NCBI RefSeq assembly: GCF_002744755.1
Contig: NZ_KZ319287.1
Coordinates: forward strand, 372,001-436,000
DNA length: 64,000 nucleotides
Direction: 5' to 3'
DNA from: Leeuwenhoekiella nanhaiensis
GTDB lineage: Bacteria; Bacteroidota; Bacteroidia; Flavobacteriales; Flavobacteriaceae
Both the position numbers and the translations under genes were made by a program. Below, piece by piece: positions 3,715-33,277 of this stretch. Each line of letters opens with the position of its first letter. Position 1 is the first letter of the stretch. The notes under the pieces are model-generated. The model had not been told where the DNA came from, did no database searches, and saw only the letters and a list, made by a program, of their open reading frames with translations.

Positions 3715-3780
3715 TCTCCGCTTTGCTCTTAAAAAATGCTATTCATTTGCTCTTATACTTCTAGGACACAAATTTTGTAA

Positions 3781-4530: not shown

Positions 4531-4666
4531 TAGAACGATATAATTAAATATGAATAAATTCTATAAAAACTAAAAATAAGGCAGAAGTTGTTAAAATCTA
4601 GGTTTCGGATCTGGAATATAAAATTTGTCCCGTCCTGGAATAAGTTGACACAAATTCGACTTATTT

Positions 4667-5062
4667 ATGAAACATTCAGAAAAAGCAAGTACTAAGCGTA
4701 CTCAGCGAGATTACAATTTAGGCTTTAAATTAGCGGTTGTATCTCAAGTAGAAAAAGGCGAGATGACTTATAAGCAAGCCCAAAAAGCTTATGGTATTCA
4801 GGGAAGAAGCACTGTTTTGGTTTGGTTACGAAAACACGGTACCTTAGATTGGAATAAACCTAAGTCAAGGCTTACTTACATCAAAATGAAAGAAACACCT
4901 GCTCAAAAGATCAAGAGGTTAGAAAGAGAATTATCGGATGAAAAGCTCAAGAATAAGATTCTCAATACGATGATCGACATCTCAGATCAGCAATATGGCA
5001 CTTCCATCAGAAAAAAGCATTTACCCAATCAATCCAGCGAATCCGGCAAGAACACTGGCTAA
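4667..5062 (+). CDS. IS3-family transposase OrfA
   Basis: This 131-residue protein has an N-terminal helix-turn-helix of the IS3 OrfA type (YNLGFKLAVVSQVEKGEMTY, then KAYGIQGRSTVLVWLRKHG). A leucine-zipper-like helix follows (PAQKIKRLERELSDEKLKNKIL, about 85-105) that in the family mediates multimerisation. It binds the terminal repeats and, by frameshifting, supplies the N-terminus of the OrfAB transposase. The slippery heptamer A AAA AAG at 5011-5017 lies in its last third. Confidence 0.85.
   Translation: MKHSEKASTKRTQRDYNLGFKLAVVSQVEKGEMTYKQAQKAYGIQGRSTVLVWLRKHGTLDWNKPKSRLTYIKMKETPAQKIKRLERELSDEKLKNKILNTMIDISDQQYGTSIRKKHLPNQSSESGKNTG
5011..5017 (+). promoter_or_regulatory. Programmed -1 frameshift site of the IS3 element
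   Basis: A AAA AAG in the orfA zero frame allows slippage to the orfB frame, giving ...IRKK followed by AFTQSIQRIRQEHW. This reads as a typical IS3 junction and runs without a stop into orfB. Confidence 0.75.
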
Positions 5063-5082
5063 GCCTGTCGCGTTGTTGCAGA

Positions 5083-5913: not shown

Positions 5914-5978
5914 AACTGTCAATCTATTTTAGGACGACTCAGATTATATTGTCTAGAATCTTAATTATTAAGTATAGC

Positions 5979-7655: not shown

Positions 7656-7964
7656 AATTGGACAGTTTGTGGTCTTATTTTCTATATAAAAAAAGCATTT
7701 ATTTTTAAATAAAACGCTACAAAACAACTAGTTGTGTGGTTTTGTGACGCTATATTTTCTATATGAATTTCTAGAGGTGTTGTGAGCGCACGTAATTTCT
7801 TGATTTTTGTGGTGTATGTGGATTCTTAACCTAATCCAATACAGATTTAGCATTTGATCCAAATGTAAAACAGCTCGTCGATATCGAAATAGTAGTACAA
7901 TTCGATATACATACGAAAACGTTTGCAGGAGGGTTTCGGCTAAAAGCCACTTAAAATTCATTTA
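7656..7964. other. Control region between the SusR-like gene and susC
   Basis: This 309-bp non-coding region holds an AT stem (TTTATTT-tt-AAATAAA, 7698-7713), a perfect 12-bp palindrome ACAACTAGTTGT (7724-7735), the palindrome CGATATCGA (7879-7887) and AAAACGTTTGC (7916-7926). The first may end the regulator transcript; the others are candidate protein-binding sites for the susC promoter. A strict flavobacterial -7 box (TAnnTTTG) was not found. TATATTTT just after 7750 is the closest match. Confidence 0.45.
7879..7926. promoter_or_regulatory. Candidate operator pair upstream of susC
   Basis: CGATATCGA (7879-7887) and AAAACGTTTGC with its AAACGTTT core (7916-7926) both recur upstream of the galactan PUL susC, in the opposite order and orientation. 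The AAACGTTT core resembles LacI-type operators. No LacI gene is in the window, so the factor would be encoded elsewhere. Confidence 0.4.
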
Positions 7965-15271: not shown

Positions 15272-17122
15272 ATGATCAAAACGATTAAGAATTTGTTCCT
15301 TTTAGCTTGTTTCTGTCTTTTAGGTTTCAGCGGAAATGCACAGCTCAAAAAAGTAGAGCCGCCGTATTGGTGGGCAGGTATGGAAAAATCTGAGATACAA
15401 ATCCTTTTCTACGGAAAAGATATTGCAGATTACAAAGTGTCTTTGCAAGAAGATGTGCCTATAACAGGCATTCGCAAGACTGAGAATCCCAACTATCTTT
15501 TTGTAAGTATTGAAACAGCACAAGCTTCAGCAGGAATTTTACATTTTGATTTCAGTAAAAAAGGAAAGGTCAAGTTTACCAGAGATTATGAGCTAAAGGA
15601 GCGAACTGCAGATTCAAAGAATCGTGAAGGATATGATAGTAGCGACGTGATGTATTTGTTGATGCCCGATCGTTTTGCCAACGGAAACCCCGATAATGAT
15701 TCAGTTGATGGCTTAACTGATACCTACAATCGAGAAAAAAACGGTGGCAGACACGGCGGGGATATTAAAGGGATTGTAGATCATCTGGATTACCTCGAGG
15801 AGTTAGGAGTAACTACACTTTGGAGTACACCGCTTTTAGAGGACAATGACCCCGGATATTCATATCATACCTATGCGCAAAGTGATGTGTATAAGATTGA
15901 CCCGCGCTATGGTTCTAATGAAGATTATAAAAATCTAGCTTCAGAATTGCACAAACGTGATATGAAATTGGTGATGGATTATGTGACCAATCATTGGGGT
16001 GCAGAGCATTGGATGGTAAAAGACCTGCCTACGTATGACTTTATCAACCAATTTCCCGGTTATGCTCAGTCTAATTATAGAATGGAAACGCAGTTTGATC
16101 CGCACGCGGCACACCGCGATCATCACTATTGTGCAGACGGTTGGTTTGTAAAAACAATGCCAGATCTCAATCAGAAAAACCCATTGGTGCTCAATTATCT
16201 GATTCAGAATGCTATCTGGTGGATCGAGTATGCAGATCTTGATGGGTTGCGCGTAGATACCTACAGTTATAATGATAAAGAAGGCATCTCAAAATGGACA
16301 AAAGCCATTATGGATGAGTACCCCAATTTTAATATTGTAGGTGAAGTTTGGTTGCACGATCAAGCACAGATCGCTTATTGGCAAAAAGATAGTAAGATAG
16401 GAGCGATTCAAAATTATAATACTTATTTACCGTCGGTGATGGATTTTACCTTGCACGACGGCCTGACTTCTATGTTTTCTGAGAAAGGAGGCTGGGACAC
16501 CGGGATGAAGAAAGCGTACAACAATTTTGTAAATGATTTTTTATATCCGGATACCAATAATCTTCTCGTCTTTTTAGAGAATCACGATACCGGCAGGTTT
16601 AACGAGATCTACGATCAGGATATCAATGCCTATAAATTAGGACTTACCCTTATTGCTACAACGCGTGGTATTCCGCAACTTTATTATGGTTCAGAAATTG
16701 GGATGCGCGGCGATAAGGCAAAAGGTGATGGCGATATACGCAGAGACTTTCCCGGAGGTTGGGAAGGTGACGCGCTAAATGCCTTTAAAGCTTCGGTAAG
16801 AACGGAGCAACAAAATCAATTTTACGACTTCACTCAAAAGTTACTCAACTGGAGAAAATCAGCAAAGGCGATCCACTCCGGAATCCTAACGCAGTACATT
16901 CCAGAAAATAATGTTTACGTTTTCTTCAGAAGCCTAAACGATGCTCAAGTTATGGTGGTGCTCAATAATAATGATGAAGTGCAAACGCTTGATCTTTCTC
17001 GTTTTTCAGAAAGTATAAAATCAAGTACTGCAGGTGTAGAAGTGCTGAGCGGGAAACAAATTGCATTAAAACAAACGCTTACAGTACCTGCTAAAACCCC
17101 AATGATAATAGAATTAAATTAG
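15272..17122 (+). CDS. GH13 neopullulanase/cyclomaltodextrinase-type enzyme (SusA-like)
   Basis: This 616-residue protein has a signal peptide ending near GNAQ, so it is probably periplasmic. An N-terminal beta-sandwich (about 25-110, VEPPYWWAGMEKSEIQILFYG) matches the cyclomaltodextrinase N-domain. The GH13 core shows MPDRFANGNP (about 131-140), DYVTNHWG (region I), GLRVD with nucleophile D329, GEVW with E358, and ENHDTGR with D439. It cleaves maltodextrins or pullulan fragments after import, as SusA does. The start, 150 bp from the window's GH13 amylase stop region, has a hairpin just upstream. It is followed by the GH31 gene after 10 bp. The exact specificity cannot be read from the sequence. 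Confidence 0.87.
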   Translation: MIKTIKNLFLLACFCLLGFSGNAQLKKVEPPYWWAGMEKSEIQILFYGKDIADYKVSLQEDVPITGIRKTENPNYLFVSIETAQASAGILHFDFSKKGKVKFTRDYELKERTADSKNREGYDSSDVMYLLMPDRFANGNPDNDSVDGLTDTYNREKNGGRHGGDIKGIVDHLDYLEELGVTTLWSTPLLEDNDPGYSYHTYAQSDVYKIDPRYGSNEDYKNLASELHKRDMKLVMDYVTNHWGAEHWMVKDLPTYDFINQFPGYAQSNYRMETQFDPHAAHRDHHYCADGWFVKTMPDLNQKNPLVLNYLIQNAIWWIEYADLDGLRVDTYSYNDKEGISKWTKAIMDEYPNFNIVGEVWLHDQAQIAYWQKDSKIGAIQNYNTYLPSVMDFTLHDGLTSMFSEKGGWDTGMKKAYNNFVNDFLYPDTNNLLVFLENHDTGRFNEIYDQDINAYKLGLTLIATTRGIPQLYYGSEIGMRGDKAKGDGDIRRDFPGGWEGDALNAFKASVRTEQQNQFYDFTQKLLNWRKSAKAIHSGILTQYIPENNVYVFFRSLNDAQVMVVLNNNDEVQTLDLSRFSESIKSSTAGVEVLSGKQIALKQTLTVPAKTPMIIELN

Positions 17123-17132
17123 AATAATAACA

Positions 17133-19250
17133 ATGAAAAAATTCACCCTACTTTATATTTTAGCATTAACCGCGTGTTTACCGGCGGTTTTTGCACAATC
17201 TTCAAGTCTTGCAGAATCTGGCGTGGCGGTTTTTTACCCTGCAGATTTTGACTCGATTAACACCTTGCCTTCCTTGGCGATAATTAAAGATTTGCCAAAG
17301 CGCGATTCGCTACCGGGAGATTGGGCAATCAAACCTGAGTTTGTTACTCAAGACGGAAAAACTTCGGTACATTTTGATTTAAATGCCAACATAGATCTTT
17401 ATGGAACCGGTGAAGTCATCGGCGATCTGCGTCGTAACGGTGCCGATGTTACTTTATGGAATACCGACAACTACGAGTACGGAAAATTTGATGGAAAGCA
17501 GCTTTATCAAGCGCATCCTTGGGTTTTAGGAGTACGTCCAGACGGAAGCGCTTTTGGTATTCTTGCAGACAATTCCTGGAGACAAGAAATTCGCTTAGAT
17601 GTGGGAGTCGATATTATAAGTGAAGGTCCTGCCTTTCGTGTTATTGTGATCGAGAAGAATAGTCCGCAAGAGGTTATGAAAAGTCTGGCCGATCTTACCG
17701 GTAAGATGGAAATGCCTCCGCTATGGGCATTGGGCTATCAGCAATCTCGGTATTCCTATTTTCCGGACACGAATGTAAAAGAGCTGGCAGACGGTTTTAG
17801 AAGCCGAAATATTCCTGCAGATGTGATCTGGATGGATATTGATTATATGGACGGCTTTAGAGTGTTTACCTTCGATCCTGAAGGATTTCCTGATCCTAAA
17901 AGTTTGAATGATTATTTGCACGCTCAAGATTTTAAATCGGTTTATATGATAGACCCGGGTGTGAAGCAAGATTCGCTGTATAGCGTCTATCAAGAAGGAA
18001 GCGCCGGCAATCACTGGGTTTTAGATTCGTTAGGTAAAGAGTATAACGGTGAAGTTTGGCCCGGGCAGGTTGCGTTTCCAGATTATACAAGACCTGAAAC
18101 GCAAAAATGGTGGGCTTCTTTGTACACCGATTTTATGAATCTGGGCATTGACGGTGTTTGGAATGATATGAACGAACCGGCGGTTTTTGATGGTCCGGGA
18201 GGTTCTATGCCAGACCATAACATACACCGTGGAGGTGGCGATTTGCCAAAGGATATTCATTTAAGATATCATAACGTTTACGGGTTGTTGATGGTGCGCT
18301 CCAGCCGTGAGGGAATTATAGATGTTAATCCAGACAAGAGACCTTTTGTACTCTCTAGAGCCAATTATATTGGTGGACAGCGATATGCTGCCACATGGAC
18401 GGGCGACAACTCGGCTACTTGGGATAATTTAAAAATGTCGATCCCAATGTCGATCAATCTTAGTCTTTCTGGGCAGCCTTTTAACGGGCCGGATATCGGC
18501 GGATTTACCAAGAGCCCGTCTGCAGATCTATTCGGAAACTGGATCGCTTTAGGAGCGTATTATCCGTTCAGTAGAAATCACACCTCTAATGAAACTGAGC
18601 CTCAGGAACCTTGGGCTTTTGGCGAAGAGATCGAGAATGTAGCGCGCACAGCGATCAACCGTCGCTACCGTTTACTGCCGTATCTATACACCTTGTTTCA
18701 CGAAGCGGCAACCACAGGAATGCCAATTATGCGCCCTACGTTTTTTGCAGATATTGAGGATGAAAACTTACGCGAAGAGCAGCAAAGTTTCTTATTAGGT
18801 GAAAATCTATTGATTATTCCGCGTTGGGCTGAAGATGTACAAATGCCTGAAGGAGACTGGCAACAAATCCCATTTGAAGAGACGGATGATACGTATCAGG
18901 CGATCGTAAAATTAAGAGATGGAGCGATCGTGCCTATGGGACCTGTAATTCAAAGCACAGAAGATTATAGCACCGCTAAGATGACATTATTGATAAATAC
19001 AGATGAAAATGGTCACGCTACCGGAAGTTTATATGACGATGCGGGCGAAGGTTTTGAATACCAAAACGGAGAATTTGCAGAGCTAAAATTCACAGCAAAG
19101 CAAAAAGGAAACAAAAAAGTAAACGTAAAAATCGAGCAGGTTGCGGGAGCGCAAAAGGCTGCACGTGAATTTAGAATAGCATTAGTAAAAGACAATCAGA
19201 TCATCTATTCTGATTGGTCATCAGATGATGAATTGACCCTGAAGTTTTAA
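17133..19250 (+). CDS. GH31 alpha-glucosidase (SusB-role enzyme)
   Basis: This 705-residue protein has a signal peptide ending near VFAQ. The GH31 N-terminal beta domain (about 70-185, LYGTGEVIGDLRRNG) precedes the barrel. Catalytic motifs are WMDIDYMDGFRVFTFD (about 233-248), WNDMNEP with nucleophile D345 and TGDN with acid/base D425. PFNGPDIGGF and ALGAYYPFSRNH follow as expected for active GH31. It releases glucose from maltodextrin ends in the periplasm. In Bacteroides this step is done by a GH97 SusB; here a GH31 takes its place. It is the last gene of the alpha-glucan operon, closed by a 12-bp stem terminator at 19275. Confidence 0.9.
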   Translation: MKKFTLLYILALTACLPAVFAQSSSLAESGVAVFYPADFDSINTLPSLAIIKDLPKRDSLPGDWAIKPEFVTQDGKTSVHFDLNANIDLYGTGEVIGDLRRNGADVTLWNTDNYEYGKFDGKQLYQAHPWVLGVRPDGSAFGILADNSWRQEIRLDVGVDIISEGPAFRVIVIEKNSPQEVMKSLADLTGKMEMPPLWALGYQQSRYSYFPDTNVKELADGFRSRNIPADVIWMDIDYMDGFRVFTFDPEGFPDPKSLNDYLHAQDFKSVYMIDPGVKQDSLYSVYQEGSAGNHWVLDSLGKEYNGEVWPGQVAFPDYTRPETQKWWASLYTDFMNLGIDGVWNDMNEPAVFDGPGGSMPDHNIHRGGGDLPKDIHLRYHNVYGLLMVRSSREGIIDVNPDKRPFVLSRANYIGGQRYAATWTGDNSATWDNLKMSIPMSINLSLSGQPFNGPDIGGFTKSPSADLFGNWIALGAYYPFSRNHTSNETEPQEPWAFGEEIENVARTAINRRYRLLPYLYTLFHEAATTGMPIMRPTFFADIEDENLREEQQSFLLGENLLIIPRWAEDVQMPEGDWQQIPFEETDDTYQAIVKLRDGAIVPMGPVIQSTEDYSTAKMTLLINTDENGHATGSLYDDAGEGFEYQNGEFAELKFTAKQKGNKKVNVKIEQVAGAQKAAREFRIALVKDNQIIYSDWSSDDELTLKF

Positions 19251-19274
19251 GTAGTTTAGTTGAATTTTGGTTTG

Positions 19275-19304
19275 AAAAAGGCTTCCGTATTGGAAGCCTT
19301 TTTT
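19275..19304 (+). terminator. Terminator of the alpha-glucan PUL
   Basis: AAAAAGGCTTCC (19275-19286) and GGAAGCC plus a run of six T (19292-19304) form a perfect 12-bp stem with a 5-nt loop, 24 bp after the GH31 stop. Confidence 0.85.
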
Positions 19305-19381
19305 AGTACTGTTAATGTAATGCTTAAGCTGAGTAAAAAATACGCGACTTTGATATTTTTTTATCCTTTGAGTCTTTCTTA

Positions 19382-20014
19382 TTAGCCAATCGGGGTAATT
19401 TTATATGCACAGCGTTTTGCACCGGTTAAAATATGACTGGTACGTTCAATAGCTACTTGATCTCCTAATACGTTTTTAAAGGTGCGCAATTCCGACTTAC
19501 AGAAACCTTGACAGGATTTAGCAGCATCACAAATAGGGCAGTGGTTTTCTACTAAAAGATACCCATCTTCTTCCTTAGAAATATGTGCCATATAGCCTTC
19601 TTCGGTACGTATAGAAGCAAGCTCATTCAGTTTTTCTTCTAGTGATGCATCGCGATTTATAGCAGCATTGTATTTAAGGATATTGTCGTCACCGGTAGCA
19701 AAAATGATGGCATCGAGAGCTTTTTCGCCCAGTGTTTCTTTTATCTTTTCGATCAATTTAATGGTGATGCCGGCGTGCGCATTAGGAAACTGAGCGTGAC
19801 CTTTTTCAGTAAGTGACCAAATTTGCTGAGGTCGACCTCGCCCTTGAGATTTACTCTCAGATTTGACTAAACCTTCTCCCGACAATTTTTGAAGCTGAAA
19901 ACGAGCGCCTTCAGTAGTAATTGCTAAGGCCGAAGCCAACTGTTTAAGCGTTTGTGTGCCTTCTTTTTTAAGGATTTCAAGCGTTGTATTATAATCCTGA
20001 CTTAAATTATTCAT
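19382..20014 (-). CDS. SufR-like Fe-S type HTH transcriptional regulator
   Basis: This 210-residue protein has an N-terminal winged helix (about 8-75, [23 protein letters not shown], then a basic GRGRPQQIW wing). The C-terminal half carries Cys residues C159, C162, C168, C172 and C202 in [14 protein letters not shown] and AKRCAY, the arrangement of SufR-type regulators that bind an Fe-S cluster. It is divergent from a superoxide dismutase gene with 85 bp between the starts. An inverted repeat overlaps the sod promoter and could be its operator. It probably couples sod expression to redox or iron state. The partner and direction of control are inferred. Confidence 0.75.
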
Positions 20015-20054
20015 AATAAACCAAGTGTTTATTTTTTTTATTAATCAAACTTAC

Positions 20055-20069
20055 TACCTTTGTAAGGTA
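20055..20069. promoter_or_regulatory. sod promoter -7 box overlapped by an inverted repeat
   Basis: TACCTTTG (20055-20062) fits the flavobacterial -7 consensus TAnnTTTG, 37 bp before the sod ATG. The same bases form TACCTT-TGT-AAGGTA (20055-20069), a perfect 6-bp inverted repeat. This is the classic position for a repressor site, most simply for the divergent SufR-like protein. Confidence 0.5.
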
Positions 20070-20099
20070 AATAAAAGATTAATATTAAAATATAACGTT

Positions 20100-20708
20100 A
20101 TGAGTTATCAATTGCCAGAATTACCATATGCTTATGATGCTTTAGAGCCTCATTTTGATGCAAAAACTATGGAAATTCACCATACAAAACACCACCAAGG
20201 GTATACTACAAAATTAAATGCTGCTTTAGAAAGTGCAGGAATTACTGAAGATCTAGAAAGCTTATTTTCTAAAATCTCGACATTATCGCCTGCGATCAGA
20301 AATAACGGTGGCGGATTTTACAACCACAAATTATTCTGGTCGGTTTTAACGCCAGACGCTAAAGAGGCTCCGGAAGGCGCATTGGCTGAAGCGATTACTA
20401 ATACTTTTGGTTCGCTTGACGCGTTGAAAGACGAATTCAACCAAGCGGCTGCAACACAGTTCGGTTCAGGTTGGGCTTGGCTTGTGGTTGACGCTGAAGG
20501 AAACTTAAAAGTGACTTCAACGCCTAATCAGGACAACCCATTAATGGATGTTGCTGAGGTAAAAGGAACTCCTATTTTAGGACTTGACGTTTGGGAGCAT
20601 GCTTATTATTTGATCTATCAAAACAAGCGCCCAGATTATATCAGTGCATTTTGGAATGTTGTGAACTGGGACGAAGTTTCAGCACGCTACAGCGCCGCAA
20701 CCAAATAA
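20100..20708 (+). CDS. sodA: Superoxide dismutase, Mn type
   Basis: I take the ATG at 20100 ([20 protein letters not shown]), which matches the family start; the frame is open 25 codons upstream but reads through the promoter. The protein is 202 residues, normal for the family, and has no signal peptide. Metal ligands are H27 (MEIHH), H76 (FYNH), D163 and H167 (DVWEHAYY). The Gly before FYNHKLFW and the Gln in TPNQDNPL (Q144) follow the Mn-type rather than Fe-type signature. It converts superoxide to hydrogen peroxide and oxygen in the cytoplasm. It is divergent from a SufR-like regulator, and a 15-bp-stem terminator follows. Confidence 0.92.
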
Positions 20709-20740
20709 AAAATTAAGGCGAAATCAACCTTTTGTAAATA

Positions 20741-20775
20741 AAAACCACCGAAAGCATTGCGCTTTCGGTGGTTTT
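20741..20775. terminator. Bidirectional terminator after sod
   Basis: AAAACCACCGAAAGC (20741-20755) and GCTTTCGGTGGTTTT (20761-20775) form a perfect 15-bp stem with a 5-nt loop, bounded by A4 and T4. It serves sod and, from the other side, the decayed barrel gene whose stop is 6 bp away. Confidence 0.85.
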
Positions 20776-20780
20776 ATAGT

Positions 20781-21506
20781 TTATAAACTATAATTTAAAT
20801 GAATGCCCAAACGGTATTTGGCTTCTACCTTTCCTGCATTGAGCTCTTGATTCACCGGAAGCATTACATTAACTCCGGTTCCTTATTTTCCGAAAGAGAT
20901 TTCTGAACCCAATCTTGCAAACAAGACATTGCCTTGCGTGTCTGCCACCGGCAAACCATAATTTTTATTTTCAGCATAAACTTCTCCTGCTAAACCTGCA
21001 TACGGAATGATCTTGTCAATCTTTATCGTGTTATACACTTTTGAAAGATTAACGCCATAGGTAAATTGATCACCAAAATGATACTGCGCATTATTTTCGG
21101 TTTTGATGGTGTAATTGGCCAAGACACCTAATCCCCAATTCTCATAGCCTATAGAATAATTTGCGGCCAAAACATAATCCCAACTTCCTGTTCCTACTTG
21201 AAAACTTGGGTTCACACTGCCTTCATTATTGGCGCGATCGTAAGCACCTGTAGGTATTTTTACACCACCACCAATCTCAAGCATATGTTTGAACTTGGTT
21301 TGTTGATTGGCATAAAGTCCATCCATTTTTGGAGTGATTAAGGAGTAGAATGCGAGAATGCTCAGGTCTCCCAAACCGTCGATATTTTGGGAAGAACCAT
21401 CAATAAAATTACGGTTATGAAAATGATAGGGTAAAATTGCAGTGATGCTCAATTTTTCGGTCACCGGAATTTTCCCCCAAAGTTGTAAGGTGTTGAAATT
21501 TTCTTC
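20781..21506 (-). pseudogene. Decayed outer-membrane beta-barrel (transporter-type) gene
   Basis: The frame reads leftward from a break at about 21506 (EENFNTLQLWGKIPVTEKLSIT) through 193 codons to a TAA at 20883-20885. It then continues in the same frame for 34 more coding-like codons (GTGVNVMLPVNQELNAGKV to HLNYSL) to the true end at 20781. The alternating pattern, with GLGDLSILAFYSL and GGGVKIPTGAYD, resembles the Phenol_MetA_deg-like outer-membrane family of uncharacterised transporters. The 5' end, including the signal peptide, is missing; at 21507 the sequence changes abruptly to an unrelated SDR fragment. One nonsense codon and one truncation make it a pseudogene. Confidence 0.65.
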
Positions 21507-21508
21507 AA

Positions 21509-21718
21509 CTTAACGGAGTCGCACCGGGGCCTATCTGGACTCCGCTGATTCCGGCTACCTTTGATGATGTGAGTGATTTTGGACAGGATGTGCCTTTAGG
21601 AAGAGCCGGGCAGCCCAGTGAAGTGGCTCCTGCCTACGTATTTCTGGCTTCAGCAGATAGCAGTTATATTACCGGGCAGGTGATTCACGTAAATGGGGGT
21701 GAAGTGGTAGGTGCCTAG
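21509..21718 (+). pseudogene. 3' fragment of a short-chain dehydrogenase (SDR) gene
   Basis: Only the last 69 codons remain: LNGVAPGPIWTPLIPATF, then PLGRAGQPSEVAPAYVFLAS and YITGQVIHVNGGEVVG. These are the typical C-terminal motifs of an SDR family NAD(P)-dependent oxidoreductase. The Rossmann GxxxGxG and the catalytic YxxxK lie in the missing part, so the product cannot be active. The fragment starts right where the decayed barrel gene breaks off. In related genomes this kind of SDR often sits near a large-subunit catalase; here a catalase 3' part follows, convergent, after a shared terminator. Confidence 0.8.
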
Positions 21719-21743
21719 ACTTAGGGATACGAAACAGGTATAA

Positions 21744-21772
21744 AAAAAAGGCTGTCAATGACAGCCTTTTTT
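21744..21772. terminator. Bidirectional terminator between SDR fragment and catalase end
   Basis: AAAAAAGGCTGTC-aat-GACAGCCTTTTTT (21744-21772) is a perfect 13-bp stem with A and T runs on both sides, between the two convergent 3' ends. Confidence 0.85.
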
Positions 21773-21794
21773 CGTTACGGAATGTTCCTCTTCC

Positions 21795-24700
21795 CTAAAC
21801 AGCAATCGCATCGGTATGTTTCATACGATCCCAGTTTCTGTGCTGAGCAATACCTTCTATGAATTTATTCGATTCAGCATTTATAAATACCGCTTTATCC
21901 TTTTTGTAATTGGGAAGGCCTGCGTTTTTAAGTACTTCTTCGCCCGCTCCCAGTGCCGCTATGGCTTTACAGTGTTTAAAGGCTTCTCTTATAAATTTGG
22001 TAAACTTACCGGTCTTAAGCAGGGTTTTAACCGATGCATCTCCACCCGGGATCAGCAGGGCATCAAACAAAACACTTTCGGTTGTCATGACCGAGGCAGT
22101 AACCATATGTTTCATATCCTGATCACATTTAATGCTGCCGCCGTGAGGTGCCACAATTTTAACTACGGCTCCTGCTTTTTCAAGAGCATCCTTGTAGGGC
22201 TTAAAGGATTTCATATCAAAACCATCTGCTGCGAGCACTGCAATCTGCCGCGTGGCAATACTCTCGAATTTGGTTTTGGCCTGACTCAGTGCCGGGTCTT
22301 TCTTAAGGTATTCTTTTTTAGGCCGGGGTTGGAAATCCTCAATATTGGCATCAGCACCTATGGCCTGATTGACAGGCTGCTCGATGGATTTCGGAATTTT
22401 AAGGCCTAAACCACCTGCGACCTGCTCCGCTAATTGCTGATCGATCTGGCTGATAACCCAAAGCATGCGCTCCTGAATTTCCTGATGGTTGCATTTACCC
22501 AACTCAAAGGTGTAGGCATCTGCCACATGTTGCTGCTCCCATTTGGCCAAGCTGCGGTAAAACAAGGCCGGTTGTGAGTAGTGATCACTAAAACTTGTAC
22601 TGCGGGAGCGTATTTTATGAGCGTCTATGCGTTCCTGATGGTGGGTAAAACCGCCTTCGGCCATCTTAGCCAGATGCGGACATCCCATGCTCAGCGAATT
22701 TGGAAAATAGGCTGTTTGCCCTTTTGGGATTTCGGTCTGCATGTGCCCATCACGCTGGTTGTTGTGACTGGGTACCACGGGTCTGTTGATGGGGATCTGG
22801 TGAAAATTAGGACTGCCCAGGCGCGATAACTGCGTATCACGATAAGAGAATAAACGCCCCTGCAGCAGCGGATCGTTTGTAAAATCGATGCCCGGTACGA
22901 TATGTCCGGGTAAGAAAGCTACCTGTTCGGTTTCTGCAAAGAAATTTTCCGGATTCTTGTTGAGGGTCATCTTCCCGATGATTTCTACAGGAACCAGTTC
23001 TTCCGGGATGAGTTTAGTAGGATCAAGGAGGTCAAAATCGTATTTATGCTCGTCTTCTTCCGGGACCACCTGAATACCAAATTCCCATTCCGGAAATTGA
23101 CCGTCATCGATGGCATCCCATAAATCCCGACGGTGAAAGTCGGAGTCGGCCCCATTGATTTTTACGGCTTCATCCCAGGTAACGGAGTGTACTCCCAATA
23201 CCGGTTTCCAATGAAATTTTACGAAATGGGATTTACCTTCCTTATTGATGAATCGAAAGGTATGAATGCCAAAACCTTCCATCATCCGGTAACTGCGGGG
23301 AATCCCCCGGTCGCTCATCACCCAGATGTGGTTGTGCAAGGTTTCAGTAGCACGAGAAACAAAATCGTAAAAGGTGTCGTGTGCCGAAGCTGCCTGGGGA
23401 ATTTCTTTATTAGGCTCGGGCTTAACGGAATGAATGAGGTCTGGAAACTTCATGGCGTCCTGAATGAAAAAGACCGGCATGTTATTACCTACCAGATCCC
23501 AGGTTCCTTCTTCGGTATAAAACTTTACCGCGAAGCCCCTTACGTCCCGCGCAAGGTCTGGCGAACCTTTAGATCCGGCAACGGTTGAAAAGCGTACAAA
23601 AACAGGAGTTTTACGCTGGGTATCGGTAAAGAGGCCGGCTTTGGTATACTTTTCCATGTTTTTATACAAATTATAATAGGACCCTTTTTGCTTAATGAGT
23701 TCGTGGTGATTTCCTATCTCAATGATTTTCCCCTGATCAAGCACGACGATTTGGTCTGCATGACGAACGGTGCTTAATCGATGTGCAACGACAACTACCG
23801 TTCGATCTTCAAAAAAGGAATTGAGCTTTTCGATTATTGTTTTTTCATTATTAGCATCTAATGCAGAAGTAGCCTCATCAAAAAATAAATATTTTGGATC
23901 CTTGTAAACAGCCCGCGCGATTAAGAGGCGTTGTTTCTGACCTGTACTTAAACCCACGCCTTCTATTCCGATCTTCGTGTTGTAAGATAAAGGTAAAGAC
24001 TCTATAAAGTCTTTAATGTTGGCGATATCGACAGCTTTTCCTAGTTTATTTTTATCAATATAGTCTTCACCAATAGCTATATTGTGAGCTATGGTATCGT
24101 TAAAAATATAGCCTTCCTGCATTACTACTCCACAAGCAGATCTCCAGGTTTTTTGAGAAACATTTTCCAATTTATGGGTTCCAAGAAGCACATCTCCTTC
24201 AATGGGGGAGTAGTATTTCATCAGTAGTTTGATGAGCGTAGATTTACCACTACCGCTCACCCCAACGATAGCGGTTACTTTCTTTGCAGGAATCAAAAGA
24301 TCTAAATCTTCAAGAACCAATTTATCAGAACCCGTATATTTGAAAGAGACACGCTGTAATTTTAAGTCGGACTTGTAGTTGATATCACTAATCTTTTGAG
24401 CAGTATCCTCTTCGTTTTCTTTATTATGGATTTCACCTAGTCGGTCGAGCGATATCTTAGCATCGTGATACTCGCGAACAAAATTAATAAGCTGAGAGAT
24501 TGGAGAATTTAATTGTCCTACTATGTATGAGATGGCCAGCATCATACCCAAAGTGATATCGCCCTTAATCACCAGAGTTGCAGATAATACTGTTATAAGA
24601 ATGTTTTTGAGCTCGTTAATAAAATTTGACCCCACCTGTTGGTACTGTTCCAATGCCAGACCTTCCACCGAAATTTTAAACAATCGGGCCTGTAAAAACT

Positions 24701-25820
24701 CCCACCCCCAGCGTTTTTGTTTTTCAGCGTTATGCAGTTTGATTTCCTGCATCCCATTGATGAGCTCAATGGTTTTACTTTGCTCCTGACTAACCTGAGA
24801 GAACCGTTTATAATCCAGGTCAGCACGTTTTTTAAGGAAGAGTTTTATCCATAGGAAGTAGAGAATACTACCACCAAGAAATACGACAAAGATCCAAAGA
24901 TTATAATAGGCTAAAACAATACCGAATATGATCAGGTTTACAAAAGAGAATAGTACATTTAAGGAGGAAGAAGTGAGTATGCGCTCTATCCGTCTATGGT
25001 CATTAATGCGTTGCAATATATCCCCGGTCATTTTGGTGTCGAAGAATGCAATGGGTAGGTTCATTAATTTGATGAAAAAATCAGAAATAAACGATATATT
25101 AAGTCGTGTACTCAAATGTAAAAGAATCCATCCCCGTATTACTTCGATGGCTGTTCTACCTAAGAAAAGGAATATCTGAGCAATAAGTATTAGGTAGATG
25201 AATTGTATGTCCTGATTTCGTATCCCTACATCAACAATACTTTGCGTTAGAAATGGGAAAATTATTTGAAGTAAACTTCCAGCAATTAAGCCGATAATGA
25301 GCTGAACAAGGAATCTCTTGTATTGAAAAAGATATTTTGAAATAAACTCAAATCCAAACTTATGATCCTCTTCAAAGCCTGAGTCATAGAGTTTTGGAGT
25401 TGGTTCTAAAAGTAGAGCGATTCCTTCTTCGGTATGGTCATTTGCATTATTCCCTATCCAAGACTTTATAAAATCTGATTTTGAATATTTTAAGAGTCCG
25501 TGAGCGGGATCAGATATATAAAAAGTATCATTCTTTATTTTGTAAAGAACGACATAATGATTTTTATTCCAATGTAAAATGCAGGGTAATGGAGCTTCTT
25601 TAAGCTTTTCCAAATTGATACAGACACCAATAGACCGAAAACCAATTTGCTCAGCAGCTTCACTGAGCGATAGAAGATTACTACCAGACCGTGTGGTCTC
25701 ACTAATACTTCTTAACGACTGGATTGAAAAACTTTTCCCATAATGCTTGGCAATAATTTTAAGGCAGGTAGGGCCACAGTCTTTGGAATCAGGTTGCCGG
25801 TATGTTGGAAAACGTTTCAA
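21795..25820 (-). CDS. In-frame chimera: C39-peptidase ABC exporter fused to an N-terminally truncated catalase
   Basis: This single 1341-codon frame has two unrelated halves. Residues 1-721 are a bacteriocin-type exporter: C39 peptidase with C15 (DCGPTC), H88 (NHYVVL) and D104; membrane domain about 165-445; ABC domain with Walker [10 protein letters not shown] (520-528), signature LSTGQ (624-628), Walker B with E649 and H680. It lacks only the usual last few residues. From M722 the protein is a large-subunit catalase (KatE type): [16 protein letters not shown] (about 776-780), proximal heme ligand Y993 ([10 protein letters not shown]) and a C-terminal DJ-1/flavodoxin-like domain (about 1170-1341). 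The N-terminal 90-130 catalase residues with the catalytic His are missing, so catalase activity is not expected. The catalase half is visibly more GC-rich. Either a real recombination product or an assembly join near 23657. Confidence 0.85.
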
Positions 25821-26205
25821 ACCTTAATTATTACTATTAAATATAGGGTTTAAAACCCTGATTATCAGTAAGAATTAATTTCTAATCTAATAAGTTTTTT
25901 TTAGTTTTGGAATTTGTGACACAGATCGAATGCAATTTCAATTCCAGATTTAAATACTATTTTAAGCTTTAAATGAATTATTATATTGTTTCAATCTCTT
26001 TGGGACCATTTGATCTACTTTAATCTTAGAGTTTAGTGAACCTGATTAATAGCAGGAATTACCTTTTTAATTTTTTAGTACAGTAAGATTAAATTTATTT
26101 TGAAATTTCACTTTATGTTTTTAATGCAATCTCACACAGAAATCTTGACTTCATATAAGGCATTAATCTTTTTTAAATTAAGCAGCAATAAATCTAGATC
26201 ATCTA
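25821..26205. other. Gene-free stretch upstream of the exporter chimera
   Basis: This AT-rich spacer has no credible gene. No short ORF with a double-Gly leader peptide, the usual partner of a C39 exporter, was found on either strand. The only clear structure is the palindrome at 25845-25859. Confidence 0.45.
25845..25859. promoter_or_regulatory. Palindrome upstream of the exporter start
   Basis: AGGGTTT-A-AAACCCT is a perfect 7-bp inverted repeat with a 1-bp centre, 24 bp before the exporter ATG. It could be an operator in the promoter region; no regulator is assigned. Confidence 0.3.
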
Positions 26206-28815
26206 TTATTCTAGCCATAAACTAATTATTGATAGGCCATATTCCTCTTTTAATTCTTTTTCGTTCAATCCAGGTCCTACCGAAAATTGAATGCTTTCAA
26301 TTCTGTTGATATCAAAGTTTTCAGGATTATTATGTTCAAAATAGTAAGGCAAAAAGCTGGGATAAGGCCTGGGCAAGGTCACCGTTTTTACTGGTTTAAG
26401 ACTAGATAGTTCAAGTGCGTAGGTCTCGGTTTTAGGGGTAAGGGTCACTATGCCACCGTACGCTGAGCCATCATCAAGTACTAATGCAATCTGTAAAGGT
26501 GTGTTCCTGTCTCTTAAAGCCCTACCCTTGAAAACGATAGATTTTTTCGCATCTAAATCTGATTTTCTACCTTCTATGTCGTCCAAAATATAGTGTTTGA
26601 AGGTGTAGTCGTATATGGGCTCGGCGTTTAGATTTTCGTTATCAGGAACAAAAAGGGGACCTATATCCATCAGGTATTCTGCTTCATTGGCATGTTCTGT
26701 AGGCTTTAGACTAAAACCTCTACGCCATTGGCGTACCAGTAAGTCTACATCTTCATCCGCGTTAAAAAGATAAATAGGGTTTTCTTTAGGGACCACTCTG
26801 ATTTCGTAACTGTCACGATCATAAAAATCCCATTCAAACGGCCTTCCTTCGCGGTTGGCAGGATAGGTCCTATAGGTTTCATCGGCTAGCTGGGCGATGA
26901 GGTTGTAGTTAAGGTAACCTGCATTCATTTTGTTGGCGGGAATGGTGGCTACATAATCAAAAGTGCCCTGAATTCTTTCCATCTCGACCACCTCCCGATC
27001 AAAGCCGTTTGCGGCCACAAGTTGGAGGCTTAGAGGGGCTTTTGGAGCGATGAACTGCGCGCTTATGACTAGTGGCTCCTCCGCAGAAGCCTCTTCCACG
27101 GGCTTATGCTTGAGCCAAGGCTTTTCCACATTTCCCTCGGGGGCGTAATAATCGCTCAGCTTTCCATTTTCAAAAGTATCATCAGCGGAATGATCTCCAT
27201 AATTACCTGTGTTACTGAGCAGATAGGTTCCTGGCACGATGCTAAAGCTGTTTTTATTGATTTTGGGCACAAATTTGTTGCCGTTATTGATGGCTTTCAG
27301 AGATAGGTTTTTTATCCCTTCCCACGTTAATTGCATGGTGTGTTCATTCCATTGTACTACACCTACGGTTTTTTTTGGACTATTTGTCCCAAAGGGATTA
27401 GATACCCATACTGCATCTGGTTGCATTTCAAGCCTCCACGTATTCTCATCTAACTTATCCAGAAAATAAGCGCCTGTTCCGCTATATTTCACTAGTGGGG
27501 AATTACCAACCCCGGCAATTTTAATAAGTTTTTTAAGGTTTTTTGGAGTTTTGTTAGTGCTATTGGTATAAATGAAAGTGTTTTCGCTATTATAAACGGC
27601 CAGGTCCTCTTCATAGCTAATGGTCACATTATCGAAAGTATTGTTTTCGGGGTATGTGCCATAATCGGTGTACATGGGTGATTCATGAAATACCTTGCCT
27701 GCAATCATTAGGGCGAGTGCCTTTGAAGGAGTAAAGTTAAGGTTCATATAATGTGTGTTGTACTCGGTATTGTAGGGAGCGAGGTAGGTAGGATCGTAGG
27801 CAAAATGGGTTCCTATCTGTATACCGGCTTCCCTAAAACTTCTTGCTATGGCTGGGTAGATGTAAGAGCGTCCCACATTTGCTGCATCAAATTCGTAGAC
27901 TAATTTTGCTCCCTCATTCGCCTTAAATTCATCATCGAAGGGAATGTTATAGTCATTTACATTAGGCAGCAGGTTGCCCGGTATTTCCTTGCCATAACCT
28001 AATCCTGTAGGATACCACTGAAAGGTACCTCCCTGAATGCCACCGTCAAAGTAGGCTTGAGCAAAATGAACGCCGTGACTGGTGTTATAAAAGATGGGTT
28101 TTTCGGTGCCGGTTGTTCGCATAGCATCTACCATTTTCTTTACATATGCCGTGACTTTGTCAGCTTCACCACTATGGTGAGGTTCATTACTAATTTCAAA
28201 GGCTATAATATTAGGTTCATTTTTATAGGCAACTCCGGTGTAAGGGTTTATGTGGTTTAAAAACTGTTCTAAATAGTTTTCTGCAGCCTTTATGGCTCCA
28301 ACATTATCGAGGCTATTGCCCTTTCCGTATTTGGAAGAAAATCCAGGAGAATCGGTATCTGGTTCAGGCCAGCCGTTGCCCCAAAAAGCGATGGGTGTGA
28401 TCACATAATTGATGTTATTTTCTTTTAGTTTTTTTAATAAATAGTCAAAAGCATCAAGGTGTTCATTTTCGATAAGGTTACCCAGTGTGTCACTAATTTC
28501 AGTATCCCAAACATGAAGGCGGTATAAATCAAATCCTAATCTTGAAAAGTGGTACACATCATTATCAATGGCTCTTTTTGGGTCAATTCCCATTCGCTCA
28601 GCCGAGCGGTAGGCATGGGCAAAGGGAACTGAGTAGTTTACCCCAAATCCTTTTACTTCCTCCTTGGTTTTGCCCCATCTCATTACACCTTCATTGTCAA
28701 CATATACATTTCCCCTATTTTGAGCTACACTATTGAGGTGTAAAAGCATCAAAAAGATTAGTGCAATAAAATAATTAATGTTTTGATTGTTTTTTTGATT
28801 TTTAGATGAGTTCAT
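26206..28815 (-). CDS. Clan GH-A glycoside hydrolase, probably GH147-like beta-galactosidase
   Basis: This 869-residue protein has a signal peptide (residues about 15-31, ending SVAQ). The barrel (about 50-420) shows LGFDLYRLHVWD, then FEISNEPHHSG with acid/base E211 and LVYEFDAANVG with nucleophile E308, the clan GH-A layout. A large all-beta C-terminal region (about 560-869) follows, which is unusual for GH5 and fits GH147 in length. Known GH147 members are exo-beta-galactosidases acting on pectic galactan, matching the adjacent GH53/GH2 genes. The family number is inferred from length and context; another GH-A family is possible. It is divergent from the HTCS gene, 133 bp apart, with an inverted repeat between them. 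Confidence 0.6.
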   Translation of the reverse strand: MNSSKNQKNNQNINYFIALIFLMLLHLNSVAQNRGNVYVDNEGVMRWGKTKEEVKGFGVNYSVPFAHAYRSAERMGIDPKRAIDNDVYHFSRLGFDLYRLHVWDTEISDTLGNLIENEHLDAFDYLLKKLKENNINYVITPIAFWGNGWPEPDTDSPGFSSKYGKGNSLDNVGAIKAAENYLEQFLNHINPYTGVAYKNEPNIIAFEISNEPHHSGEADKVTAYVKKMVDAMRTTGTEKPIFYNTSHGVHFAQAYFDGGIQGGTFQWYPTGLGYGKEIPGNLLPNVNDYNIPFDDEFKANEGAKLVYEFDAANVGRSYIYPAIARSFREAGIQIGTHFAYDPTYLAPYNTEYNTHYMNLNFTPSKALALMIAGKVFHESPMYTDYGTYPENNTFDNVTISYEEDLAVYNSENTFIYTNSTNKTPKNLKKLIKIAGVGNSPLVKYSGTGAYFLDKLDENTWRLEMQPDAVWVSNPFGTNSPKKTVGVVQWNEHTMQLTWEGIKNLSLKAINNGNKFVPKINKNSFSIVPGTYLLSNTGNYGDHSADDTFENGKLSDYYAPEGNVEKPWLKHKPVEEASAEEPLVISAQFIAPKAPLSLQLVAANGFDREVVEMERIQGTFDYVATIPANKMNAGYLNYNLIAQLADETYRTYPANREGRPFEWDFYDRDSYEIRVVPKENPIYLFNADEDVDLLVRQWRRGFSLKPTEHANEAEYLMDIGPLFVPDNENLNAEPIYDYTFKHYILDDIEGRKSDLDAKKSIVFKGRALRDRNTPLQIALVLDDGSAYGGIVTLTPKTETYALELSSLKPVKTVTLPRPYPSFLPYYFEHNNPENFDINRIESIQFSVGPGLNEKELKEEYGLSIISLWLE

Positions 28816-28883
28816 TCGGTTGAATTTGTATTAAAATCTTTATTAGAACAATAGTACTGAGTAGTGGTTTTTATAGTAAGGTT

Positions 28884-28908
28884 AATAAACGTATTTGTTA
28901 CGCTTATT
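28884..28908. promoter_or_regulatory. Inverted repeat between the GH-A enzyme and HTCS genes
   Basis: AATAAACGTA (28884-28893) and TACGCTTATT (28899-28908) pair at 9 of 10 positions with a 5-bp spacer. It lies in the 133-bp divergent control region and is a candidate operator for both genes. Confidence 0.4.
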
Positions 28909-28948
28909 ATTTTACTATATTTATCCCAACAATTTTAAGAATTTGCTA

Positions 28949-31900
28949 ATGAAAATAAGGGGTACATATTCATCAATTGCAGTACACATAATCTGTTTAT
29001 CTGTCGCCCTGTCTTGCTTTTCACAATCCCGTCCTATTTTTGAAAATATCGACCAGAGCAGTGGTCTTTCAAACACCCGGGTGACAAGTATCGTTCATGA
29101 AAACGGTGGGTTTGTGTGGATGGGAACCAAAAATGGCCTCAATCGCTATGATGGTAAGGATATTAAAATATATAATAAGCAGAATAGCGCCCTTAGTGCC
29201 AATGACATTGCAGATCTATATCTGGATCAGGATGGAAACCTATGGATTGCAACGCTGGGTGGTGGCCTCAACCGCTATGATGCGCTTCAAAATTCTTTTG
29301 AGGTCTTTCGGCATAATCCTAACGTTGAAAACAGTATTCCTTCCAATCAGGTCAATGCCATACTGGAAGATAAAAAGGGCAATCTTTGGCTGGCTACTGA
29401 AAACGGTTTGGCTCTTTTCGATAAAGAAAATAAAGCTTTTCAACGCTTTAATTTAGGACCAGGGAAAAAAGGTCCGGGTAGCCTTAGCAGTTTGTTTTTG
29501 GCTAACGATAATATCTTGTGGATAGGAAGTTTTGGCAACGGCTTGTTTCGTATGGACATCGCTACAGGTAAGGTAGAACGGTTTGTTTCAAAGCAGCCCT
29601 ACTTTTCAAATTTCATACACGACCTGTTGCAACTTCCCGATGGTAATCTGCTTATAGGCACCAGCGGGGGAGGCCTTTTGCACTTTGATCCCCAAACAGG
29701 GCTGTATTCCAACTTCTTGGCCTATCTGGGCTATGATCAGGAAATAGCAATTGTCCGCAAGCTGATTTTAGATGCTACGGGAAGCCTCTGGGTAGGTACA
29801 GATGGCAATGGTGTGCTCCGTGTGATGCACTTGGATCAACCCAATCAACACGTCTTTCAATATACCTACAATGCCAATCAGGAATCTTCTCTTGCCGGTA
29901 ATGCCATCTATGAAATCTATCAGGATCATGATCATATTGTATGGGTAGGCACGGCGTGGAATGGAGTAAGTGTTCTGATACCAGACCGTGACTTCACCTA
30001 CCTATATGGTGATATTTTGGGCAATAATCCATCTCCAGTGCTTTCCGTTTTCAAGGACGGTGAAACACTTTTTCTGGGACTTGACGGGCAGGGCCTCACT
30101 GTTTATGATCAGAATATCGATGAGGTTACTTATTATAAAAAAGAGACGGGGACCTCTCTGGGGGGTAATTATATTCAATACCTGATGAAGGCCCAGAACG
30201 GGATTTATTGGATGGGTACTTTTGCCAATGGTCTTTTAAAGTTTGACCCCAGGACCGGAAATAGCAAACAATATAAGCACCGGCCGGGTGATTCGCTTTC
30301 GCTGAGTTATAACGATGTGCGTTATATCATTGAGGATGAATCTGGTAATCTTTGGATTGCTACCTGGGGCGGTGGGCTCAATTATTTTGACCCACAGAAG
30401 GAAACATTCTTGAGTTATAGAGCAGATCCTTCTGCTCTTGGTGATACTTTGTTTAAAGGAATAAGCAGCGATAATGTCATCGCCATGGTGAAAGATGGCC
30501 CTGTATTATGGCTAACTACATTTGGCGGGGGGTTAAACCGTTTTGATATCCAAAAAGGAACTTTTGAACATTTTGTTTACGGGGAAATACCAAAATCAAT
30601 TGCGAGTAACAACCTCTACACCATTTTTAAGGATTCAAGAAATAATTTGTGGATAGGTACTTCCGGGGAGGGTGTGAACCGCATGAATCTTGAAACGCAA
30701 ATAATAGAACGCTTTGAAGATAAAAATTACTTAAGGTATGCTACTGTTACCGGTATAGTGGAAGATGAGGAAGGGGCCATCTGGATCAGTACCAAGCAAG
30801 GCCTTTTTAAATACGAGTATGATTCTAATGTTTTCTTTTCATTTCCAGATCAATATGGAGAATTTCATATCAATGCAGTATTTAAGAGTGATAGCGGGCG
30901 GCTATATTTTGGTGGTATAAATGGCCTGCTCACATTTGAACCTTCTCAAATGAAGTTAGATACAACCCAGCCGCGCGTGACATTTACAAATTTTAAATTG
31001 TTCAATAAGGAAATTTCGGTTAGTGATCGGGATATTTTAGATAAAAGCATCAACCATGTTCGAGAGGTAAGGCTGGAGCACGATATGGATGTCATCACAT
31101 TTGAATTTGCTGCATTGAACTTTCCTTTTAGCGATAATACCGAGTACGCGATAAAGATGGAGGGATTTGATGAGCAATGGCGAGAAATAGGCAAGGATCG
31201 CACGGCTACTTATACCAATTTATCCCCTGGATCTTATGAATTTAGGGTTAAGGCCAGGGAAGAAGGTAGTTCCTGGGGTGAGGCATTTACTTCGGTAAAG
31301 GTGACCATATTAAAACCGTTCTGGTTGACCTGGTGGGCCTTTGTGATTTATAGCCTGCTGGTCTTGGGGCTCTTTTACATTTTTAGAAAATACATCGTTG
31401 CCTGGGAGCAGATGAAATCAAACCTGAGGCTGGAGCGACTTACTCACGAGAAGGATACGGAACTTTACAACCTTAAGCAGCGGTTTTTTACTAATATATC
31501 ACACGAGATTCGCACCCCGGTTACCTTAATCCTAAGTGCTATAAATAGATTGGGGGAGCGCAAGGAACTTATGGATGAAGCGATCAGCCCCGCTGTTGCT
31601 TCTGCAAAAAAACACGGAAATCACTTGTTGCATCTGGTCAATGAACTTCTTGATTTTAGAAACTTGGAAGATCAGTCCAAAAAGTTGAAATTAGCTCATA
31701 CCGATTTCATAGATTTTGGCAAAGAAATCTGTCTTTCCTTTACCGAAAGTGCCTTGAAAAATGATATAACATTTCATTTTGAAGCAAAACCCAGCCAGCT
31801 TATGCTCTGGTTTGACAAGAACCAGATGGAAAAGGTATTTTACAATCTCTTAAGTAATGCTTTTAAGTTCACACCCGGTGGTGGCCATATTAAGCTAAGT

Positions 31901-33025
31901 GTGGAAGACGCTCATAATGAGGTGTTTCTCAAGGTACAGGATAGCGGTATAGGTATTTCCAAAGGGCAAATAGGTAAAATATTCAACAGGTTTTACCAGT
32001 CGCCCAATTCTGCAGAAATACAAGAAAACGGTTTTGGTTTGGGACTTTCCATCACACAGGAAATCGTTGAGCTGCACGGAGGCAAGATCACCGTAGAAAG
32101 CATCAAGGGCGGTGGTACCACTTTTATCGTAAGCCTTCTTAAGGGTAGAGATCATTTTGACACAAATGCCATCGAAGACGATCTTGCTGACTCTGAAAAT
32201 GTGGAACATTACCTATATGAAGGTATGCAACTTGAAGATACCGTTAGCGTACAGCCAGAGTGGGACGAGCTCAGGGACCTTACCCTCCTCGTGGTAGAAG
32301 ATAACCTTGAGATACGCGCTTACCTTAAAGCTTTACTTAGCGCACAGTGCGACTTGCTTGAGGCAGAAAATGGGGAAGAGGCCTTTGAGTTAGCCATTAG
32401 CAAACAACCAGATCTCATCATCAGCGATATTATGATGCCGGTGATGGATGGGATTACGCTTACCCGGAAGCTAAAAGAAAATGTTGACACCAGCCACATC
32501 CCTGTTATCCTGCTCACTGCACGGGCCTCGTTCATTCATAAAATGCAAGGCTACGGCACGGGTGCCGATGATTATGTGACCAAGCCCTTTAACGAGGCAT
32601 TATTGCGTGCCAGAATAAAAAGTCTTATTCTTAACCGTCAGCGGCTTCAGGAACACTTTGGCGGGGAAGCCCTGCTCACTCTTAATGAACTTCCCGTAAA
32701 CACAGTGGACCAAAAATTTTTGGAAGAACTCATCAAGATAATTCAGGGAAATATTGACAGCGAAAACCTTAGTGCAGATTACCTTAGCCGGGAAATGGGA
32801 ATGAGTCATAGCGTAATCTATAAAAAGGTAAAAGCACTCACGGGAATGACTCTGGTAGAATTTGTTAGGGATTATAAACTTAAAATAGCAAAAGTACTGA
32901 TATTTGAACAAGGCTTTTCAGTAAGTGAAGCCTGCTACAAGGTGGGCTATTCTGATCGCAAATACTTTAGTAAGCTTTTCAAGAAAAAATTTGGGAAAAA
33001 CCCTTCTGAATTTAGTAGAAAATAA
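28949..33025 (+). CDS. Hybrid two-component system sensor-regulator (HTCS)
   Basis: I choose the ATG at 28949 (MKIRGTYSSIAVHIICLSVA), which gives a signal peptide; total 1358 residues. The order is: periplasmic two-propeller sensor of repeated Reg_prop units (about 28-700, many WIGT/GLNRYD/GGGLNRFD repeats), Y_Y_Y domain (about 725-785), membrane helix (about 790-812), HisKA with H852 (NISHEIRTPV), HATPase with GFGLGLSI (about 1028-1035), receiver with phospho-acceptor D1160 (ISDIMMPVMDG) and a C-terminal AraC HTH (about 1258-1358). HTCS proteins bind oligosaccharide in the periplasm and activate the PUL. Here the neighbours point to beta-1,4-galacto-oligosaccharides. Nothing is missing. Confidence 0.93.
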   Translation: MKIRGTYSSIAVHIICLSVALSCFSQSRPIFENIDQSSGLSNTRVTSIVHENGGFVWMGTKNGLNRYDGKDIKIYNKQNSALSANDIADLYLDQDGNLWIATLGGGLNRYDALQNSFEVFRHNPNVENSIPSNQVNAILEDKKGNLWLATENGLALFDKENKAFQRFNLGPGKKGPGSLSSLFLANDNILWIGSFGNGLFRMDIATGKVERFVSKQPYFSNFIHDLLQLPDGNLLIGTSGGGLLHFDPQTGLYSNFLAYLGYDQEIAIVRKLILDATGSLWVGTDGNGVLRVMHLDQPNQHVFQYTYNANQESSLAGNAIYEIYQDHDHIVWVGTAWNGVSVLIPDRDFTYLYGDILGNNPSPVLSVFKDGETLFLGLDGQGLTVYDQNIDEVTYYKKETGTSLGGNYIQYLMKAQNGIYWMGTFANGLLKFDPRTGNSKQYKHRPGDSLSLSYNDVRYIIEDESGNLWIATWGGGLNYFDPQKETFLSYRADPSALGDTLFKGISSDNVIAMVKDGPVLWLTTFGGGLNRFDIQKGTFEHFVYGEIPKSIASNNLYTIFKDSRNNLWIGTSGEGVNRMNLETQIIERFEDKNYLRYATVTGIVEDEEGAIWISTKQGLFKYEYDSNVFFSFPDQYGEFHINAVFKSDSGRLYFGGINGLLTFEPSQMKLDTTQPRVTFTNFKLFNKEISVSDRDILDKSINHVREVRLEHDMDVITFEFAALNFPFSDNTEYAIKMEGFDEQWREIGKDRTATYTNLSPGSYEFRVKAREEGSSWGEAFTSVKVTILKPFWLTWWAFVIYSLLVLGLFYIFRKYIVAWEQMKSNLRLERLTHEKDTELYNLKQRFFTNISHEIRTPVTLILSAINRLGERKELMDEAISPAVASAKKHGNHLLHLVNELLDFRNLEDQSKKLKLAHTDFIDFGKEICLSFTESALKNDITFHFEAKPSQLMLWFDKNQMEKVFYNLLSNAFKFTPGGGHIKLSVEDAHNEVFLKVQDSGIGISKGQIGKIFNRFYQSPNSAEIQENGFGLGLSITQEIVELHGGKITVESIKGGGTTFIVSLLKGRDHFDTNAIEDDLADSENVEHYLYEGMQLEDTVSVQPEWDELRDLTLLVVEDNLEIRAYLKALLSAQCDLLEAENGEEAFELAISKQPDLIISDIMMPVMDGITLTRKLKENVDTSHIPVILLTARASFIHKMQGYGTGADDYVTKPFNEALLRARIKSLILNRQRLQEHFGGEALLTLNELPVNTVDQKFLEELIKIIQGNIDSENLSADYLSREMGMSHSVIYKKVKALTGMTLVEFVRDYKLKIAKVLIFEQGFSVSEACYKVGYSDRKYFSKLFKKKFGKNPSEFSRK

Positions 33026-33166
33026 TAGTTTATAAACAACCTTTTTAAGGTTAATAACCGTTTACTTGACTCTTTCTCCCTTCAATTAATTACTCTTGAT
33101 AAATTTTTCTTGAAAAAACGAAATCTTCACCCTATTAAAATCAATTTTCACCCCCTTTAGGTTTAC

Positions 33167-33221
33167 GCAAACGTTTTAATTGCACTTAGTTTTGTGAATA
33201 TAATAGATACAACGATATCGA
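33167..33221. promoter_or_regulatory. Candidate promoter and operator pair upstream of galactan susC
   Basis: GCAAACGTTTT (33167-33177) and CGATATCGA (33213-33221) repeat the two motifs seen before the alpha-glucan susC. TAGTTTTG (33187-33194) fits the -7 box TAnnTTTG and lies between them. The AAACGTTT core would sit between -33 and -7, a good place for repression. Confidence 0.45.
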
Positions 33222-33277
33222 TTTAGCTATTTAATAATGTTCGCAGCAGATGATTGCCAATTTAATAATTAAAATAA

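Follow-up and report, generated by a model that had tools for sequence, protein, structure and literature searches.

A single open reading frame in the window, the 64,000-nucleotide stretch of Leeuwenhoekiella nanhaiensis DNA analysed here, runs from a C39-peptidase ABC exporter into a catalase. Is it a new protein, a recombination scar or an assembly error? A first-pass annotation left these three readings side by side. On the evidence below we consider it highly probable that the frame is a young rearrangement scar, open by accident; the new protein lost ground, being carried by no relative tested and having a second joint 2.16 kb away. Were the tail kept by selection, a new exporter architecture would be at hand. 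As a scar, it exemplifies how what looks like a remarkable "new fusion protein" can be explained, in a draft genome, through close relatives, by a double breakpoint, lost partners and a lucky frame, and automatic annotation may label such an ORF both bacteriocin exporter and catalase. In the following, G000 denotes the window's own genome, and G001 to G012 the other Leeuwenhoekiella genomes.

The frame lies on the minus strand (25820→21795), which the first-pass annotation had not stated, starts with TTG and encodes 1341 amino acids with no internal stop. The exporter part reaches residue 718; after it comes a KatE-type catalase, of which the last 624 residues are present (Table 1). A motif search recovered DCGPTC from residue 14, H88, D104, GVSGSGKST from 520, LSTGQKQR from 624, a 10-residue motif from 645 and VVAHRLST from 677, so that every exporter motif looked for is present and the peptidase and ATPase motifs are intact, as had been claimed. 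We take C15, H88 and D104 to be the Cys/His/Asp triad of the C39 domain, and the motifs from 520, 624, 645 and 677 to be Walker A, signature, Walker B and H-loop, respectively. Thus, the ORF has the C39 domain with its Cys, His and Asp as well as the transmembrane and ATPase domains with their motifs. The catalase part retains N779 and Y993, presumably the heme-site Asn and the heme-ligand Tyr. Of the hallmarks of KatE, the heme-ligand Tyr and the C-terminal DJ-1-like domain are kept, in agreement with the first reading, and the complete catalase core with the catalytic His is not. Because the Pfam Catalase profile is entered at position 56 of 383, the catalase head is missing from the fusion.

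Table 1. Features of the fused frame and its surroundings (positions in the window unless given as residues of the fusion).
Feature	Position	Strand	Basis
C39-peptidase ABC exporter, residues 1-718	23667..25820	-	Pfam, motifs, 94% aa identity to G006/G007 exporters
KatE-type large-subunit catalase tail, 624 aa, range including stop	21795..23669	-	Pfam; 94% aa identity to G010 katE
Peptidase_C39 (PF03412)	residues 4-123		Pfam
ABC_membrane (PF00664)	residues 174-440		Pfam
ABC_tran (PF00005)	residues 503-652		Pfam
Catalase (PF00199), profile positions 56-381 of 383	residues 714-1043		Pfam
Catalase-rel	residues 1075-1138		Pfam
Catalase_C (PF18011)	residues 1189-1333		Pfam
DJ-1_PfpI (PF01965)	residues 1192-1306		Pfam
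Joint 1, exporter to katE	23658..23678	-	comparison with G006/G007 exporters and relatives' katE
Perfect 14-nt inverted repeat ending in T run	21744..21772	.	repeat search
Short-chain dehydrogenase (SDR) gene, 3' end	21512..21717	+	DNA homology; Pfam of G010 gene
Joint 2, transporter-like gene versus SDR 3' end	21509..21512	.	homology breaks
Gene, family unassigned, apparently without 5' part	20883..21509	-	82% identity to G005 at the DNA level, ceasing at 21509

Comparison with relatives places the crossover at about codon 718 (23669-23667); the joint does follow the ABC domain, as first proposed, though not at M722. Past this point the exporters of G006 and G007 continue for nine residues, which the fusion lacks, while in the 711-residue catalase of G010 the equivalent point is preceded by 87 residues, including the His of VHARG. 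These 87 are absent as well, which bears out the view of a catalase without N-terminus and catalytic His. The exporter side of the joint reads TCC TAT TAT AAT TTG GTT in G006 and G007 and the katE side GGA TAT TTT GAA TTG TAT in G007 and G002, the exporter's TAT TAT AAT TTG resembling the TAT TTT GAA TTG of katE in the same frame. The crossover codon is TTG in the fusion and in both exporters; in katE it is TTG in three of the seven relatives shown (G007, G002 and G008), TTA in G010 and CTT/CTC in the other three. Stretch 21512-23666 has 89.3% DNA identity to the SDR-katE region of G010, the match ending there, and 23659-25853 has 90.0% to the G006 exporter. Since the short similar stretch has the same frame in both genes, the open frame needs no selection. 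By our own reckoning, a same-strand join inside two open genes falls in frame in about one in three cases, and the length of the frame is therefore by itself no evidence of selection. A degenerate pattern for this joint found no match in the named genomes, among which the window's own genome was perhaps not included.

A second gene-breaking joint, 2.16 kb from the first, is evidence for a scar: the piece between them (21511-23669), composed of a dehydrogenase tail and the headless katE, is cut inside genes at both ends. At the second joint, homology to G005, G004 and G007 ceases at 21509 and homology to the SDR of G010 and G007 begins at 21512, with only a few bases common to both sides. The SDR gene is complete and convergent with katE in G010, and has lost its 5' part in G000. 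The gene beyond the joint gives the impression of being transporter-like; its ORF has no Pfam match, and a 68% relative lies on contig C3 of G000. Between the katE and SDR tails, the inverted repeat is terminator-like by its sequence; the hairpin, of about 29 bases, has near-identical counterparts at G000:C6:137125 and in other Leeuwenhoekiella genomes.

The same fusion had been suggested as a thing to look for in related genomes, and none turned up. Among 13 Leeuwenhoekiella genomes including its own (E<=1e-80), it occurs in its own genome only, with no match over both halves in any of the other 12. Searches of the family (397 genomes including its own, E<=1e-180, 127 with a match) and of the phylum (395 including its own, E<=1e-60, 165 with a match), each with two or three candidates scored per genome, gave no other match spanning both halves among the matches listed. 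The longest other open frames among these had 835 and 944 codons, respectively, the 944-codon frame holding a catalase match (G767:C6:295348-296298). Catalase/ABC fusions were also sought in the literature, and nothing evidently on topic stood in the available portions of the matches listed.

Where they are present in relatives of the genus, exporter and katE are separate genes. G006 and G007 have exporters of 94% amino acid identity and about 728 codons; G011 has a 61% relative and the other nine have none. Records of L. polynyae LMG 29608 and L. parthenopeia Mr9, to which G007 and G006, respectively, probably correspond, hold this exporter. Ten genomes (G001, G002, G004, G005 and G007-G012) have a long katE, and G003 has only a short catalase (42%).

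The pieces cut off at the joints are absent from the assembly. In each of 80 named loci, the best 80 of 575 relatives found, the exporter has an HlyD relative on its downstream side, at a distance of up to 1.5 kb in 77 and with its start at 1.6-4.1 kb in three; the exporter ends at the same position as that of G007 in 79 of the 80, one being apparently shorter. In G000, HlyD gave no match at E<=0.001 (20 candidates scored), and the membrane-fusion partner expected of a C39 exporter is thus lacking. This weakens the earlier remark that the exporter may still work, though some other, more distant adaptor may be encoded in G000. The G007 sequence beyond the joint, i.e., the rest of a 15-kb query, likewise found no match in G000, and the katE head had none in G000 or G006. 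Besides the fragment, 12.5 kb around the G010 katE yielded only matches of 30-57 bases in G000. An intact exporter and an intact katE elsewhere in the strain, which the annotation had named as speaking against its reading, were looked for in G000 and not found: the single PF00199 match is the headless catalase, and the fusion is the sole match that includes the C39 part. Two KatG genes score over the cut-off in G000 and can cover peroxide removal. G000 is probably left without a functional KatE, and without an exporter of this type that has its partner.

In the rpoB region, G006 is nearest to G000 (95.9%) and G010 next (93.5%) among the 11 others compared, G012 having no rpoB match. Both neighbors have lost one of the two genes. 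G006 (probably L. parthenopeia) has no PF00199 catalase. In G010 (L167, about 7900-8590), all that is left of the same exporter is a short 5' piece closed by a stop. Of the G007 locus, G010 keeps blocks 1265-9737 and 15304-19001, and the intervening stretch with HlyD has disappeared together with part of the next gene. Hence, each of the two genes is dispensable to part of the group. G006 also has two KatG genes, with which the catalase-positive reaction of L. parthenopeia, as given in PMC9859067, would be in keeping.

Set beside known systems, the first half resembles the Flavobacteriaceae exporter with C39, ABC_membrane and ABC_tran domains on contig 9 of L. polynyae LMG 29608 in domain order, motifs and 94% amino acid identity over query residues 1-725. 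It differs in that its last nine exporter residues are replaced by catalase and that no HlyD gene follows and none is matched in the genome. The second half resembles the KatE/HPII-type catalase, complete in G010, at 94% amino acid identity, with heme-site Asn, Tyr and DJ-1-like C-terminal domain kept, and matches structures 6lfk and 1gge, HPII-type structures aligning from chain residue about 135. Unlike the G010 enzyme, it lacks the 87 N-terminal residues with the catalytic His and, where katE normally begins, has no separate start. Chimeric ORFs arise by illegitimate recombination in bacteria. The fusion is like them in the short similarity at the joint, the lost neighbors, the restriction to one genome and the damage to both partners, and unlike them in the great length of both remnants and in a frame that is nowhere interrupted.

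We therefore propose a recent chromosomal rearrangement that would have set a 2.16-kb fragment, holding the 3' end of the dehydrogenase gene and the 3' seven-eighths of katE, beside the exporter gene, with loss of the exporter's downstream HlyD partner and of the katE head. The exporter-side join may have fallen in the short stretch where the two genes resemble each other and share a reading frame, so that the frame would stay open by chance. Such a frame would encode an exporter extended by a catalase tail from which the catalytic His and the beginning of the core are missing. We think it most probable that this product serves no selected function, because the exporter is deprived of its customary partner and the tail is unable to work as an ordinary catalase. 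Separate parents in relatives, a joint in one genome only, lost partner pieces and a further breakpoint nearby are all as a scar would have them; against it stand the lack of decay in either half, the presence of all exporter motifs sought and the sampling of the species by one genome.

That lack of decay bears on the rival idea of a working exporter whose catalase-fold/DJ-1 tail is tolerated or useful and maintained by selection, which we hold to be very improbable. Between G000 and G010, the katE tail has a dN of 0.0265, a dS of 0.564 and a dN/dS of 0.047, the polarised silent/replacing changes being 43/12 in G000 and 34/9 in G010. For the exporter, dN/dS between G000 and G006 is 0.062, and changes polarised by G007 are 63/20 in G000 and 72/22 in G006. 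In 398 columns invariant in the other nine, the G000 katE tail has one change of its own. The analysis used three outgroups, of which two (G007 and G002) are nearly identical; the G012 katE was left out of the dN/dS, invariant-column and identity comparisons, G002 out of the identity comparison too, and one of four distant exporters (L060) out of the dN/dS analysis. Neither half has an excess of replacing changes in G000 or any sign of decay. Stop-free halves with low dN/dS, the exporter motifs and a joint placed after the ABC domain agree with selection, and yet low dN/dS is equally expected of a young joint, HlyD is unmatched in the genome, the tail lacks the first part of the catalase core together with the His, and no relative tested carries the fusion. 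The absence of decay fits a young frame or, less likely, a selected one; that of relaxation agrees with a joint that arose late on the G000 branch and is perhaps too recent for any to be seen. The more specific idea of a stable exporter with a heme-binding catalase-barrel/DJ-1 cytoplasmic tail, e.g., a redox-sensing or scaffold domain, selected in this species, seems to us the least probable of all.

An assembly error, in which the assembling software or chimeric reads had linked two unrelated loci while the organism has normal genes, is unlikely judging from the sequence, though somewhat less so than a selected fusion. The assembly is a draft of 49 contigs, the two abrupt joints lie 2.16 kb apart and each inside a gene, and the fusion is seen in one genome only. 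However, intact loci would leave the katE head and HlyD elsewhere in an assembly rated 99.91% complete, and neither has a match. Moreover, G000 was searched for another near-identical copy of either joint region (protein search; window 17000-23660; G007 exporter-side homologue) and yielded none, and the joint sits about 395.7 kb inside a contig of 836,881 bases. A young rearrangement scar thus remains our preferred reading.

Other origins were considered and found no support. Ancestral neighborhood of katE and exporter, fused by one simple deletion, disagrees with their location on different contigs in G007 and with the second joint of the SDR-katE fragment. A far-away source of the fragment is not supported, its 89.3% DNA identity to G010, versus 93.5% in the rpoB region, being compatible with descent inside the genus. 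A plasmid origin was tried as well; a 601-base query spanning the joint matched nothing in the plasmid collection (near mode).

Two nearby segments seem to have histories of their own. The superoxide dismutase segment at 20003-20851 is 94.7% identical to G003, versus 88.6% in the rpoB region, and has likely been exchanged between species. Block 26098-35248, which includes a GH5-like gene and has its edge a short way upstream of the exporter, shares 97.65% identity with G007, versus 88.4% in the rpoB region; G007 and G010 are themselves 98.97% identical over 8.5 kb of this locus. The block was probably exchanged recently.
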